From Planctomycetota bacterium (GTDB lineage Bacteria; Planctomycetota; Planctomycetia; Pirellulales; Pirellulaceae), in contig JAPLNJ010000429.1 in NCBI GenBank assembly GCA_026692885.1, positions 1 through 9,023 of the forward strand: a stretch of 9,023 nt of DNA, written 5' to 3'. A program made the position numbers and the translations under genes. Under the pieces are notes generated by a model. The model was given only the letters and a program-made list of their open reading frames with translations, made no database searches and was not told where the DNA came from. This document shows positions 567 through 9,009 of the stretch, in pieces. Each line of letters starts with the position of its first letter. Position 1 is the stretch's first letter.

Positions 567-1853
567 TTATCTGAGTGCCAACGGCCGGACAAGCCGTAGT
601 TCGCCGTCAGCCCATTCGACGACGACATTTCCGGGAAGCACCCGCTTGCCACGCTCCGAGTAGGGTGGGCTTTGCCCACCAGGGCTGTTTGGGGTCAAGC
701 CCATTCCGCGCTGTGCCGCTAGCCCGCACTGCACCATCGCGGCCAGCTGTTCCCACTGGGAAAATCCCATCGCCTGCAAGGGCCATCCCTGCCGCCGCCA
801 GATCCACTTCAGCAATTCGCGAACGACGTAGGCAGGCTGGTCTGCCAAGTGAGAAATCACGATGCGTACCGCGCCCGAAGTTTCGCAGATCACGCACGGT
901 TCGGCGAGTTCCTCGACCAGATGTCCGACCACCGCCTGGCTCTCGCCGGCGAGCGTGCCCAGGCGTAACAGCGCAGCGACGACACCCGCGTTGAACTCGG
1001 CTGCCAGGTGGGGCAGCAGCTCGTGACGAATCCGGTTCCGGGTAAACTGCGGGTCGGTGTTGCTGGAGTCCTGGCGATACGGTTGTGCGAGGGCGTCCAG
1101 GTATTCCAGGACCTCCACGCGGCGGAATCCGAGCAACGGCCGGATGAGCGTCGTGGCAGCGCTCAGGGGTCGAGTACGAGCCATGCCGGCCAAGCCGGCA
1201 ATCCCGGTTCCTCGCACGATGCGGTGCAGGATGGTCTCCGCCTGATCATCGGCCGTATGCGCGGTAACGACGTACCGGGCACCCACTCGGCCGGCCGTTT
1301 CGGTCAGGAATCCGTAGCGCGCGGCACGGGCGGCAGCTTCGAGGCTCCCCAAACGCCGCGCAGGAACGCCGGGCTGGGAGGGCGAGGCTCCCGCCGAGCC
1401 ACTGGCGACCTGTGGCTCGGCAGGAGCCTCGCCTTCCCAGCCCTTAGGCTCCGCTGAAGAATAACTCCCTCGCCCCGGTACTCCGGGGAGAGGGTTGGGG
1501 TGCGGGGCCGAGAAGCAAATGCCGAAGTTGTTTTTCGGCCGTGCCTTAGGCAACCCGCAGTTCGACAACGTGACACGGCCCACTTCGCACGGGACATGCA
1601 ATTCTCGGCACAGTTCGACGACGAAGGCTTCGTCGGCCTCGGCTTCCTCGCCCCGCAACTGATGATTCAGGTGGGCGGCAATCAGCCGACCTTCGCCGGT
1701 CCGTTTGACCGCCGCCATCGCCCGTAGGAGCGCCACGCTGTCAGCGCCGCCGGAAACGGCTAACAGGACCGTCGTATCTTCCCAAGACGAGGGTTCCCAG
1801 ATTTCGACCAGTTTCTGCTCGAACACAAGAAGTGGCGACATACTTTGCTGCAT
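567..1853 (-). CDS. tilS: tRNA(Ile)-lysidine synthetase with in-frame repeat insertions
   Basis: TilS attaches lysine to C34 of the CAU-anticodon tRNA-Ile in an ATP-dependent reaction, so that the tRNA reads AUA; it is cytosolic. The 428-residue product shows the N-type PP-loop SGGADS at residues 34-39, the LNHQLRGEEA segment (62-71), LEAAARAARY (171-180), HTADDQAET (199-207) and NRIRHELLPHL (273-283). A C-terminal domain ends LPGNVVVEWADGELRLVRP. Residues about 97-169 are an insertion between the third strand and LEAAAR. It is encoded by palindromic repeats and is low-complexity (PHPNPLPG, GEAPAEP, GSAGASPS). A second insertion occupies about 383-402. Without them the protein would be near 335 residues. 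The chosen ATG at 1853 has AGGGGCGG about 10 nt upstream; an ATG at 1841 is the alternative and fits family N-termini. All core motifs are intact, so the gene is probably functional. Confidence 0.93.
   Translation of the reverse strand: MQQSMSPLLVFEQKLVEIWEPSSWEDTTVLLAVSGGADSVALLRAMAAVKRTGEGRLIAAHLNHQLRGEEAEADEAFVVELCRELHVPCEVGRVTLSNCGLPKARPKNNFGICFSAPHPNPLPGVPGRGSYSSAEPKGWEGEAPAEPQVASGSAGASPSQPGVPARRLGSLEAAARAARYGFLTETAGRVGARYVVTAHTADDQAETILHRIVRGTGIAGLAGMARTRPLSAATTLIRPLLGFRRVEVLEYLDALAQPYRQDSSNTDPQFTRNRIRHELLPHLAAEFNAGVVAALLRLGTLAGESQAVVGHLVEELAEPCVICETSGAVRIVISHLADQPAYVVRELLKWIWRRQGWPLQAMGFSQWEQLAAMVQCGLAAQRGMGLTPNSPGGQSPPYSERGKRVLPGNVVVEWADGELRLVRPLALR
648..707 (-). repeat. Palindromic repeat inserted in frame in the 3' part of tilS
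   Basis: GGTGGGC (664-670), a TTT loop and GCCCACC (674-680) form a perfect 7-bp hairpin inside the tilS frame. On the minus strand the segment encodes about residues 383-402 (GMGLTPNSPGGQSPPYSERG), a glycine, serine and proline-rich stretch. It interrupts the C-terminal domain just before KRVLPGNVVVEW. The exact edges are a guess from where family-like sequence stops and resumes. Confidence 0.55.
1350..1556 (-). repeat. Compound palindromic repeat inserted in frame in the 5' half of tilS
   Basis: Two palindromes lie in tandem inside the tilS frame. The larger pairs 1371-1402 with 1412-1443 (32-nt arms, 30 of 32 complementary, 9-nt loop). The smaller pairs 1467-1478 with 1483-1494 (12-nt arms, 11 of 12 complementary, loop TACT). 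Together with flanks of unclear origin they add about 70 residues without breaking the frame. The translated arms give the mirrored low-complexity motifs GEAPAEP and GSAGASPS. The position is the loop before LEAAARAARY, where an insertion would disturb the fold least. Edges are estimated from loss of TilS-like sequence. Confidence 0.8.
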
Positions 1854-3197: not shown

Positions 3198-3318
3198 GGA
3201 CCGGCGCATCAATAACTGTCGCAAGTATAGTAGTCGTCACGCTCCGCCGTGACGACATGTCATCACGCGGATCGTGATGACTACTTTGAAAACCCGACAC
3301 TTATTGATGCGCCGGTCC
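3198..3318. repeat. 121-bp palindromic element with long terminal inverted repeats
   Basis: GGACCGGCGCATCAATAA (3198-3215) is the perfect reverse complement of 3301-3318. After one mismatch the pairing continues with TGTCG (3217-3221) against CGACA (3295-3299). The interior holds a double hairpin at 3229-3285: GTCGTCACG/CGTGACGAC (3233-3256) and GTCATCACG/CGTGATGAC (3259-3281), closed by AGTA and TACT. TA dinucleotides flank both ends (CCTA-GGACC and GGTCC-TTAG), which would fit a TA-targeting transposition event but is weak evidence. A TATACT box on the minus strand (3224-3229) lies about 58 nt upstream of the methyltransferase ATG, without a convincing -35. Confidence 0.85.
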
Positions 3319-3411: not shown

Positions 3412-3710
3412 CTAGCACCAAACGGTTTTTCCAGGTGTCGGCATTTACTTTGGTATTTGATGAATGCCCCCGGCTTGCCCGGGGGATGCTTACGTACGTC
3501 GCTACACACACAAGCATTACTCCTTCCTGCCCCGTTTCGCCAGCGGCGGCGAAGCCGCCGCTGGCGAAACGGGGCAGGAAGGTTATGGGGTGGATCGCCT
3601 TGTGTAGCTGCGAACGTGAGCCTCCACGGGGCAAGCCCGTGGCATCCAATTCACAGAACCATAAAATCTCATGCTTGACACGCCAGCCCCAAAAAACCGT
3701 TTGGTGCTAG
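3412..3710. mobile_element. 299-bp nested palindrome with perfect 19-bp terminal inverted repeats (MITE-like)
   Basis: CTAGCACCAAACGGTTTTT (3412-3430) is the exact reverse complement of 3692-3710. Moving inward, both halves carry the same modules in mirror order. First comes a 7-bp hairpin with a CTTGC/GCAAG loop (3467-3485; 3624-3642). Next is GCTACACA (3501-3508) against TGTGTAGC (3601-3608). At the centre is a perfect 29-bp stem (3522-3550 with 3554-3582) with the 3-nt loop GAA. The intervening sequence differs between halves. The ends carry CTAG or TA on both sides, as expected for a target duplication of IS630/mariner-like or IS5-like elements. No protein-coding capacity is credible. A non-autonomous mobile element or a structured RNA are the main options. 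Confidence 0.75.
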
Positions 3711-3891: not shown

Positions 3892-5961
3892 ATGTCCGCA
3901 ACTCCTGCCCCCAGTATCGAACAACTGGCCATCAATACGATCCGCACCTTGTCGATGGACGGCGTGCAACAGGCCAATAGCGGCCACCCGGGCACGCCGA
4001 TGGCCTTGGCCCCCGTCGCTTACACCATCTGGAACCACACGCTCCGCTACGATCCCGCCCGTCCCTGGTGGCCCGCGCGCGATCGCTTCGTCCTCTCCTG
4101 CGGCCACGCCTCGATGCTGCTGTATTCCGTCCTGCATCTGGCCAACGTCCGCAAAGTCGATCACCAAGGTCACAGTTTGAACGAGCCGGCGATCTCTCTG
4201 GAGGACCTGAAGAACTTCCGGCAACTGCACAGCCCCTGCGCTGGACACCCGGAGTATGGCGAGACGGCCGGTATTGAGATGACCACGGGCCCGTTGGGCC
4301 AGGGCGTGGCCACGAGTGTGGGAATGGCGATGGCGGCTAAGTGGTTCGCCGCCCGCTTCCACAAGCCGGGGTTCGATCTGTTCGACTACAACGTCTACGT
4401 CCTGTGCAGCGACGGCGATCTGATGGAAGGGGTAGGCTGTGAGGCCGCCTCCGTGGCGGGCCACCTGAAGTTGGCGAACCTTTGCTGGCTCTACGACGAC
4501 AATCATATCACGATCGAAGGGAACACCAAGCTGGCGTTCAGCGAAGACGTCGTCGCCCGTTTCCGCGGGTTGGGTTGGCACACCGTGGTGGTCGAGGATG
4601 CGAACGATCTGACGGCTTTGAAGTCGGCTCTGCAGTCGTTCCAGACTTGCACGGATCGGCCGACGCTGATCGTCGTCCGCAGCGTGATCGGCTTCGGGTC
4701 GCCCAATAAGGCCAACTCGCACGAAGCACACGGCGCACCGCTGGGCGCCGATGAAGTGCGGCTGACGAAGCGGGCCTACGGTTGGCCGGAAGACGCTCAG
4801 TTCCTGGTCCCCGCGGAAGTCCGGACGCACTTTGCCGCGGGGATTGAACGTCGTGGCACGGCGCTCACCACGGCGTGGCATGACAAGTTCGCCACCTACA
4901 CCGCGGCGTATCCGGCGGAAGCCGCCGTGCTGAAGAAGATCTGGGCACGCGAGCTTCCTGACGGGTGGGACCAGGAGATCCCGACGTTCGAGGCCCATCC
5001 CAAGGGGCTCGCCACGCGCGTGTCCTCCGGCCAAGTGCTCAACGCCGTGGCGAAGCATCTGCCCTGGCTGATCGGCGGCTCGGCCGACCTCGCGCCTTCG
5101 AACAACACGCTACTCAAGGTCGCCGATGCGGGACACTACGGGCCCCAGGACTACACCGGCAGGAACCTCCATTTCGGCGTTCGCGAGCACAGCATGGCCT
5201 CCATCTGCAACGGCCTGTCACTGTCGGGACTGCGGCCCTATGGCGGCACTTTCTTTGTGTTCACCGACTACATGCGGCCCGCGATGCGAATGGCAGCCCT
5301 GATGCACCAGCCCGTGCTGTACGTCCTGACCCACGACTCGATCGGCCTGGGCGAGGACGGTCCGACGCATCAGCCGGTCGAGCACTTGGCAGCCTGCCGC
5401 TCCATTCCCAATCTGTTGGTCTTCCGTCCGGCGGACGCCAACGAGGTGGCGGAGGCTTACCGTACCATCCTGCAGATCTCCGACCGTCCGGCAGCCTTGG
5501 TGCTGACGCGGCAGGCGCTGCCGACGCTGGATCGCCAGAAGTACAACTCGGCCGCCGGTGTGGCGCGGGGCGGCTACGTGCTGGTCGATCCCCTGCAGGG
5601 GCCGCCCGAACTGATCTTGATCGGCACGGGCAGCGAGTTGTCCCTGTGCGTAGACGCCTACCAACGCTTGGCGGCCGATGGCGTCCAGGCCCGCGTCGTG
5701 AGCCTGCCGTGCTGGGAGTTGTTCGATGCACAGGACCGCGCCTACCGCGACAGCGTCCTGCCGCCCGCCGTCACGGCCCGCGTGGCCGTGGAAGCCGGCA
5801 TCCAGCAGGGTTGGGAGAAGTACCTGGGCTTCGGTGGCCGCTTTGTTGGCATGTCGAGCTTCGGTGCCTCGGCCCCCTACGAACTGCTGTACAAGCATTT
5901 TGGGATCACGGCCGAACAGGTCGTGGCGCAGGCCCAAGCAGCGCTCGGAAAAGCGGAATAG
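3892..5961 (+). CDS. tkt: Transketolase
   Basis: Transketolase moves two-carbon units between ketose and aldose phosphates in the non-oxidative pentose phosphate pathway, using thiamine diphosphate and a divalent metal in the cytosol. The 689 residues match the usual 660-690. The N-terminal domain shows SGHPGTP (30-36, His32), CGHAS (70-74, His72) and GPLGQG (133-138). The cofactor-binding motif runs from SDGDLMEG (173-180) to DDNHITIEGN (202-211). The central pyrimidine domain has LATRVSSG (373-380), GGSADLAPSN (395-404), and GVREHSM (429-435) with catalytic Glu432. HDSIGLGEDGPTHQPVEHLA (481-500) follows. The C-terminal domain has GTGSELSL (578-585) and ends in FGASAPYELLYKHFG. No residue is missing. 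The start is supported by the family N-terminus. The gene stands alone, divergent from the methyltransferase and convergent with the rhomboid gene. Long open frames on the other strand here are codon-bias shadows. Confidence 0.98.
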   Translation: MSATPAPSIEQLAINTIRTLSMDGVQQANSGHPGTPMALAPVAYTIWNHTLRYDPARPWWPARDRFVLSCGHASMLLYSVLHLANVRKVDHQGHSLNEPAISLEDLKNFRQLHSPCAGHPEYGETAGIEMTTGPLGQGVATSVGMAMAAKWFAARFHKPGFDLFDYNVYVLCSDGDLMEGVGCEAASVAGHLKLANLCWLYDDNHITIEGNTKLAFSEDVVARFRGLGWHTVVVEDANDLTALKSALQSFQTCTDRPTLIVVRSVIGFGSPNKANSHEAHGAPLGADEVRLTKRAYGWPEDAQFLVPAEVRTHFAAGIERRGTALTTAWHDKFATYTAAYPAEAAVLKKIWARELPDGWDQEIPTFEAHPKGLATRVSSGQVLNAVAKHLPWLIGGSADLAPSNNTLLKVADAGHYGPQDYTGRNLHFGVREHSMASICNGLSLSGLRPYGGTFFVFTDYMRPAMRMAALMHQPVLYVLTHDSIGLGEDGPTHQPVEHLAACRSIPNLLVFRPADANEVAEAYRTILQISDRPAALVLTRQALPTLDRQKYNSAAGVARGGYVLVDPLQGPPELILIGTGSELSLCVDAYQRLAADGVQARVVSLPCWELFDAQDRAYRDSVLPPAVTARVAVEAGIQQGWEKYLGFGGRFVGMSSFGASAPYELLYKHFGITAEQVVAQAQAALGKAE

Positions 5962-5970
5962 CCCGGATTG

Positions 5971-6141
5971 TTCGACGGCTCTCCGAAGCCGTCGAAGTGC
6001 GCGACGGGCTCGGAGGCCCGTCGTACCGTGGAGTGCCGGCCGGCTCGTCTTGCCCCGGCAGGAAAGAGACTTACGTAGGACGGCTCTCCGAAGCCGTCGA
6101 AGTGCGCGACGGGCTCAGAGGCCCGTCGTACCGTGGAGTGC
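5971..6141. repeat. Two near-identical 63-bp double-hairpin repeats in direct orientation
   Basis: Copies at 5974-6036 and 6079-6141 are identical except for one base (G at 6012, A at 6117). A 42-bp spacer separates them, giving a 105-bp period. Each contains GACGGCT-CTCCGA-AGCCGTC, a short linker, and CGACGGGC with GCCCGTCG around a 6-nt loop. In the first copy the first stem extends to 10 bp (5971-5980 with 5987-5996). The second copy is bounded by GTAG (6075-6078) and GTAC (6128-6131), matching the double-hairpin layout elsewhere in the window. They fill the convergent gap between tkt and the rhomboid gene and may stop transcription from both sides, although no T-run follows. Confidence 0.9.
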
Positions 6142-8811: not shown

Positions 8812-8935
8812 GTTGCGAAATGCTAGCAACTACTGGTTCAGGCTGTGTAGCGACACCCCCGGGGCAAGCGGCCTGTCGCTTTACAGATCGTCCCACTTTG
8901 ATTCTGCTTGTTTTGCAGGACTTACGTCGTTTTGC
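8812..8935 (-). repeat. 52-nt interspersed repeat plus hairpins, right (inverted) copy
   Basis: Read on the minus strand, 8935-8884 matches the left-edge repeat at 39 of 52 positions without gaps. As on the left, the AAGTGGGAC-ATCTG block is followed by a hairpin, here AGCGACA (8849-8855) with TGTCGCT (8874-8880) around an 18-nt loop. A small hairpin GTTGC (8812-8816) with GCAAC (8826-8830) comes after. The hairpin segment shares GTCGCTACACA (8844-8854) and a CTTGCCC-GGGGG module with the 299-bp palindrome, so these repeats are built from common parts. Confidence 0.7.
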
Positions 8936-9009
8936 GATAGGTTGTTTGTGCCCTTGCGCCGCAATCCGCTATCGGCCAGTCCCTTCAACCCATGCTTTGC
9001 CAAGAACAT
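8881..9009 (-). CDS. Possible 42-residue ORF ending in the interspersed repeat
   Basis: An ATG at 9009 opens 42 codons ending SKWDDL at a TAA (8881-8883). An in-frame TGA directly precedes the ATG (9010-9012). The composition is basic and polar and no domain is recognisable. The last third is repeat sequence, and the left repeat copy read in the same frame has the same DVS core, which hints at a former or real coding role. No Shine-Dalgarno is seen. It could equally be the decayed end of a larger gene beyond the window. Confidence 0.25.
   Translation of the reverse strand: MFLAKHGLKGLADSGLRRKGTNNLSQNDVSPAKQAESKWDDL

Follow-up and report, generated by a model that had tools for sequence, protein, structure and literature searches.

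The window, by which we mean the whole 9,023-nucleotide planctomycete contig analysed here, carries a tilS gene whose reading frame runs uninterrupted across two adjacent palindromes in the ORF listing. The product, tRNA(Ile)-lysidine synthase, is essential; it was identified through PF01171 relatives, through sequence matches to PDB entries 3a2k, 1wy5 and 1ni5, and through an AlphaFold2 model (mean pLDDT 81.7) whose top PDB match is again 3a2k, a TilS in complex with tRNA. The features of the locus are:

567 to 1853, minus strand: tilS, the host gene, an ORF of 428 amino acids.
660 to 680, plus strand: GTAG-type REP-like hairpin in the C-terminal loop of TilS, reading GGQSPPYS (DNA fold z -3.0).
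1371 to 1443, no strand: REP pair (hairpin) with extended arms, from inverted-repeat search and DNA and RNA folding.
1376 to 1400, plus strand: REP monomer 1, GGGAGGGCGAGGCTCCCGCCGAGCC, 0 mismatches to the family; its complement is translated in tilS as GSAGASPS.
1401 to 1413, no strand: 13-nt spacer separating the inverted REP monomers.
1414 to 1438, minus strand: REP monomer 2, GGGAAGGCGAGGCTCCTGCCGAGCC, translated in tilS as EGEAPAEP.
1442 to 1551, no strand: segment with the second repeat inside it, flanked by the direct repeats CCTTAGGC (1442-1449 and 1544-1551), 102 nt (34 codons) apart.
1465 to 1506, minus strand: second palindromic repeat, unrelated to the REP pair, reading PHPNPLPGVPGRGS; dispersed family, with a further copy at locus L286.

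Two adjacent in-frame palindromes had been described here in an earlier note made from the letters of the sequence, and both are confirmed. The first is an inverted repeat (1371-1405 and 1409-1443) with 35-nt arms that are 91% complementary, around core arms of 32 nt with one mismatch; in the DNA fold 31 of 32 positions in the outer arms are paired and the energy is -43 kcal/mol, where dinucleotide shuffles give -17.5 ± 2.5 (z -10), and the RNA fold reaches -75.2 kcal/mol (z -10.6). It consists of a 25-nt REP, GGGAG-GGCGAGGC-TCCY-GCCGAGCC, present twice in inverted orientation; in each copy the 5' tag GGAG is followed by an 8-nt arm, a TCCN loop and another 8-nt arm, the doublet being head-to-head; the monomer, GGGAGGGCGAGGCTCCYGCCGAGCC(G), is often found in inverted pairs with GGGAG outermost. 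The second palindrome is real and weaker, the 100-nt stretch 1451-1550 folding as DNA at z -2.7. Its 17-nt core, CACCCCAACCCTCTCCC, is present in 64 of 146 genomes, with 117 copies in one of them (G008) and 7 matches in all for the reversed-pattern control, and the L286 copy matches at 35 of 37 bases. Both palindromes belong to dispersed families in the sampled genomes, and the insert is repeat-derived, as had been proposed. The CCTTAGGC repeats are possibly a duplication from the insertion of the second repeat, and excising the block between them in thought makes the window residues line up with those of the relative P0003, which is suggestive; because some 8-mer repeat arises in 46% of shuffles, we do not claim them as a target-site duplication.

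The insert had been put at about 70 residues, which is roughly right. The segment from HxNH to ARY spans 116 residues in the window TilS, compared with 46-52 in 32 other motif-matched sequences from 110 fetched loci (the remainder being not scorable or duplicates) and 49-53 in 95 of the 101 database relatives, out of 120, that could be scored. The outliers among the 101 are P0003 (120), P0001, the window's own protein (116), P0025 (73), P0002 (67), P0070 (65) and P0004 (56), and the window exceeds the usual loop (52) by about 64 residues and its nearest relative, P0002, by 49. In a 21-protein alignment SGGADS, HTADDQAET and all remaining invariant columns are unbroken, in keeping with the note's statement that the catalytic motifs are intact. 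Residues 101-157 and 159-165, between strand 89-93 and helix 168-190, have pLDDT below 50, and the insert is accordingly predicted by the model to occupy a disordered surface loop, the point that the note had proposed to model; the enzyme probably works with the insert present. The note had also argued that a segment conserved in all close relatives would speak against an inserted repeat. The closest relative, P0002 (90% identity over 372 aligned residues), has neither the repeat peptides nor either palindrome-derived segment in the protein alignment, the comparison being of protein only, and P0003 (on a 152-kb contig, 79% identical to the window) has EGEAPAEP, SSAGASPS and SSAGASPS in the same loop. 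Going by these alignments, an insertion site shared by the window and P0003 and empty in the closer P0002 may reflect either one gain with a loss or two gains, both of which fit.

The hairpin at 660-680 brings the repeat-like pieces in tilS to three. Its peptide, GGQSPPYS, is also found in P0002, and the C-terminal loop that holds it is 35 residues long in P0001 and P0002, the commonest length being 19 (65 of 105 scored), with pLDDT below 50 at 389-391 and 393-395. Outside tilS, REP-like repeats abound in the window, with hairpins at 1951-2002, 3230-3284, 5974-6036 and 6075-6141; those at 1951, 3230 and 6075 begin with GTAG, those at 1951 and 3230 also end with CTAC, and 5974-6036 and 6079-6141 are copies that are 98% identical. 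Nested inverted repeats at 3412-3710 (19-nt perfect arms at 3412 and 3692, 48-nt arms at 3461 and 3601, and a 29-nt perfect hairpin at 3522-3582) lie upstream of an ORF at 3892-5961 that by eye resembles a transketolase, and have the appearance of layered insertion. A 77-nt inverted repeat (71%) lies near both contig ends, at 76-152 and 8872-8948, and is perhaps why the assembly stopped there.

The REP is dispersed and highly uneven in number. At up to one mismatch, 1089 copies were found in 44 of 396 genomes sampled from the window's order; the reversed-pattern control gave 5. Sixteen of the 396 genomes are copy-rich (at least 20 copies), the highest count in one genome being 234, and genome G054 holds 229 copies against 0, 1, 0 and 0 in four congeners. 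In the 20 genomes reached via tilS loci, the REP core GGCGAGGCTCCYGCCGAGCC at up to two mismatches ranges from 0 to 61 copies per genome. A sample of 367,725 bases of G054 yielded 73 monomers (0 for the control) and 30 head-to-head pairs, with no tail-to-tail pair within 120 nt. Copies in this sample are mostly extragenic, 1 of 40 sites being clearly within a gene (11 of the 40 were judged with Pfam, and the remainder by codon score or as having no long ORF). Elsewhere spacers are shared: two copies in G270 agree at 78 of 89 bases, two neighbouring copies in G100 at 20 of 20, and the two addB copies of G165 agree in part (28 of 43). At loci L085 and L141, REP pairs lie between longer inverted flanks (AGGCTTTGTCTCAAAA and GAGGGTGTCCGG, respectively), as though a different small mobile element had received them.

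Among 24 distinct REP variants, the tag is GGAG in 23 and GGAA in one, matching neither GTAG/GTGG nor CGTC, although most published tags are GTAG or CGTC; this conservation is partly built in, as the search pattern permitted one mismatch overall. Among the copies listed for the 20-nt core alone, the 5' end is usually GGGAG. With its short imperfect stem-loop, the GGAG-tagged unit falls within the usual description of a REP (20-40 nt). In DNA folding the monomer alone folds no better than shuffles, yet its stem co-varies across variants: 75% of stem cells are paired compared with 53.5% when shuffled, co-variation is 0.44 compared with 0.138 ± 0.026 in statistics that control only partly for kinship of the variants, and slid structures reach at most 0.22. 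Two-sided changes occur at six of the eight stem pairs; the constant GGAG, the TCC and the two outermost G-C pairs (GG..CC) are partly imposed by the search pattern, the inner stem is not. The G+C-rich unit is free of stop codons in all six frames. We do not claim this openness as an adaptation, since shuffling the two monomers leaves 66% and 81% of the sequences likewise open.

In three genomes (G173, G247 and G092), inverted REP copies lie 0.5-0.9 kb apart and the intervening DNA encodes a RAYT. The three ORFs score 84.2, 77.4 and 74.6 bits with NF047646 (REP-associated tyrosine transposase), one of them over the cut-off of 80, and the profile built from them picks out 10 of the 396 genomes (E no higher than 1e-20, up to 9 candidates scored in each genome). 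We took as cognate 11 loci, namely 8 strong ones (at least 195 bits) from the 396 order genomes and 3 from 392 phylum-wide genomes. A profile of the eight has E. coli TnpAREP 4er8 as its sole PDB match (7.5e-14), and 4er8 is likewise the top fold match of a cognate RAYT model (pLDDT 89). All 11 loci contain GGAGGGn6TCCn7CC (1 mismatch) at least twice, and GGAG-tagged hairpins flank the RAYT on both sides in 10 of them and downstream only in L242; among 60 other RAYT loci, two have one match each (Fisher 3e-11). The pattern was drawn up after the first eight loci, and the three phylum-wide loci are an independent test. Across the cognate loci the stems differ while the GGAG tag and TCC loop stay, a constancy that the pattern partly imposes. 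At L305 the gene occupies 314-769 on the minus strand of its contig, and locus geometry places the repeats at 275 and 806. At L243 (genome G282), REP copies stand in series on both sides of the cognate RAYT and could be a source of amplification.

Six of the eight cognate-RAYT genomes also belong to the copy-rich 16 (P 4e-8, with a threshold chosen post hoc). A RAYT of this clade is absent from the other 10 copy-rich genomes, where every first-look candidate was scored and the best reached 56.2 bits; the 10 include G100 and G270, each with a main contig that is about the whole genome. These two genomes, with 24 and 21 REP copies, appear to hold orphan REP populations. In copy-rich genomes of this kind the gene may have been lost after a burst, may act from elsewhere, or other RAYTs may serve. 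Weaker relatives in G073 (118-126 bits) and G037 (107 bits) have no GGAG-hairpin flanks and were excluded from the 11. PF01797 was discarded as a test for the mobiliser, 33 of 34 genomes being positive whether copy-rich or not, and at 30 PF01797 loci (one per genome) the REP was absent at up to five mismatches, with one match at six. That test missed the cognate RAYTs because Pfam Y1_Tnp scores them around or below its cut-off of 23 (23.1, 16.3 and 16.8 bits for the three). The cognate clade has the motif DH[LIV]H, with WQ in 7 of 8 and Y...NP in 7 of 8, and by eye its sequences appear to bear a class 2 signature, nearest to 2.5/2.7. Relatives of these RAYTs are named from Chthoniobacterales, Phycisphaerae and Armatimonadetes.

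The habit of being read in frame extends beyond tilS. The fetched loci contained 106 distinct REP sites, giving 63 candidate ORFs, of which the best 45 by composition were inspected; 18 ORFs were given to Pfam. In addB of G165, two in-frame REP pairs follow the ADDB_N match (96-316) and precede that of PDDEXK_1 (933-1244); a U32 peptidase ORF has a copy after its domain match, an ArsP permease has one inside its match (33-312), and in a GH2-like protein (GH2_N2) the copy overlaps the end of the match. On domain placement, all four would be clear or likely in-frame hosts. ORFs in which the Pfam domain begins after the element (L140, L196, L204, L206 and L200:10785-11600) were not counted. Relatives of addB that are 74% and 81% identical have no recognisable REP copy. 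The 81% relative (L293, genome G169) has at the first site a short SEGEPPTR stretch, perhaps the decayed half of a REP, so that absence there may be loss. Over the accepted hosts (two TilS, AddB, U32, ArsP and GH2-like), 12 of 14 monomers read EGEAPAEP or are GSAGASPS-like (binomial 8e-5). This hints weakly at a frame preference, the tally being made by hand over pairs that lack independence: a single insertion may underlie both TilS cases, and in the U32 ORF the copy falls beyond the Pfam match.

We therefore propose, with a probability of roughly 0.85, that the tilS palindrome is a REP pair mobilised by a RAYT and tolerated because it is read without stops into a disordered surface loop. The RAYT, a HUH single-strand transposase, would recognise tag and hairpin in single-stranded DNA, cut, and then paste the doublet elsewhere, chiefly at intergenic sites; we infer this transposition by the cognate RAYT from the linkage described above. 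An occasional copy would enter a gene and survive where it meets a surface loop and a tolerated frame, helped by the G+C-rich unit being free of stop codons in all six frames. In tilS the doublet would have entered the loop that runs from strand 89-93 to helix 168-190, and a second repeat family would have come to lie beside it in the same loop, in an order that the sequence lets us only surmise.

Other readings account for parts of this evidence. A long mRNA duplex that tunes tilS expression, for instance as an RNase III site, would suit the RNA fold of -75 kcal/mol (z -10.6), yet nearly all scored TilS relatives do without it and nothing about the hairpin is specific to tilS, the same pairs standing at many other sites, and we regard such a regulatory role as highly improbable. 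The earlier note had looked to Rickettsia palindromic elements (RPEs) as the precedent, and the in-gene, in-frame habit on which it relied has held up; a better precedent is the REP/REPIN with its cognate RAYT. An RPE-like element in another phylum, selfish and spreading by some unknown route unrelated to RAYTs, would share the palindromic form and the in-frame place in housekeeping genes, and R. conorii RPE-4 and RPE-6 are reported among CGTC-tagged repeats in PMC3733652. Against it, the tilS family is tagged GGAG and not CGTC, its RAYT linkage holds in 11 of 11 cognate loci, and its copies in the G054 sample are, by our test, mostly outside genes, which makes this reading very improbable.

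A functional extension of TilS, such as a tRNA-binding insertion kept by amino-acid selection, gains something from the EGEAPAEP and SSAGASPS peptides in the same loop of P0003, on another contig. P0002, which is closer to the window (90% compared with 79%), lacks the insert, however, the segment is predicted to be disordered, and as DNA the palindrome turns up again in unrelated genes and at intergenic sites, leaving such an extension highly unlikely. A contig of 9,023 bases with many repeats also invites suspicion that repeats caused a chimeric join within tilS; the frame is nevertheless kept across about 190 nt, both halves align to one tilS family, the repeat peptides are encoded in the same loop on a 152-kb contig and addB shows the same in-frame habit, and an assembly artefact is the least credible reading of all.

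Building on the RAYT-mobilised REP pair, we tentatively suggest a wider picture, to which we give slightly less than even odds. The GGAG-tagged, TCCN-loop REPs and their RAYT clade could make up a third superfamily of REPs next to GTAG and CGTC, distributed across Planctomycetota and probably beyond, with tag and loop (GGA and TCC being complementary) as the recognition code and stems that drift by compensatory change. The stop-free unit, read as EGEAPAEP or GSAGASPS, a harmless linker of small residues, might then repeatedly join housekeeping proteins, the TilS loop being a recurrent landing site. An odd insert in a housekeeping enzyme is here tied to a testable mobile system, a RAYT with a tag other than the studied GTAG, and the natural series of stems with fixed tag and loop offers a test of hairpin choice by HUH transposases. 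The copies in tilS and addB serve as natural experiments in how selfish DNA becomes protein sequence and in which frame it is tolerated, and annotators should be aware that EGEAPAEP and GSAGASPS peptides in planctomycete proteins can be repeat-derived.

REPINs and BIMEs with RAYTs are known from E. coli and Pseudomonas, with GTAG/GTGG tags. The GGAG-tagged family resembles them in its short inverted-pair hairpins, high copy number and patchy distribution, and in flanking a HUH tyrosine transposase from the protein family to which theirs belong; it differs in its GGAG tag, in the spacers of the G054 sample, which are all different, and in the many host genomes without a RAYT. On the REPIN trait of paired REPs moving together the signs are mixed, with 30 head-to-head pairs and with spacers shared in G270, G100 and partly G165 set against the differing ones of the G054 sample. 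PMC3733652 (published 2013) describes two REP superfamilies tagged GTAG and CGTC, with families in Planctomycetes and Verrucomicrobia, dimer spacers that are mostly 20-100 bp and variable in some dimers, and REPs within ORFs (recBCD, DNA repair and tRNA pseudouridine synthase genes) of several non-Rickettsia species. Those repeats share with ours the make-up of a tag plus an imperfect stem-loop, the spaced dimers and the occasional place in an ORF, but neither tag fits, and the string GGGAG has no word-start match in that paper. In PMC6006769, GT[AG]G is canonical and atypical structures are given for TnpAY1 subclass 2.6 (Bacteroidetes, NH[LIV]H) and class 3 (Planctomycetes, foot CnGA, Y motif YV[VI][AENY]EQ); these too have non-GTAG structures beside the transposase gene, whereas the cognate clade has DH[LIV]H and mostly WQ and Y...NP. 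The literature searched, which leaves most subscription-journal papers to one side, yielded no description of a GGAG-tagged REP family. With Rickettsia palindromic elements the family shares in-frame palindromes in genes and differs from them in its tag. Intragenic REPs were thus already known, and what is new is a REP/RAYT system with a different tag.
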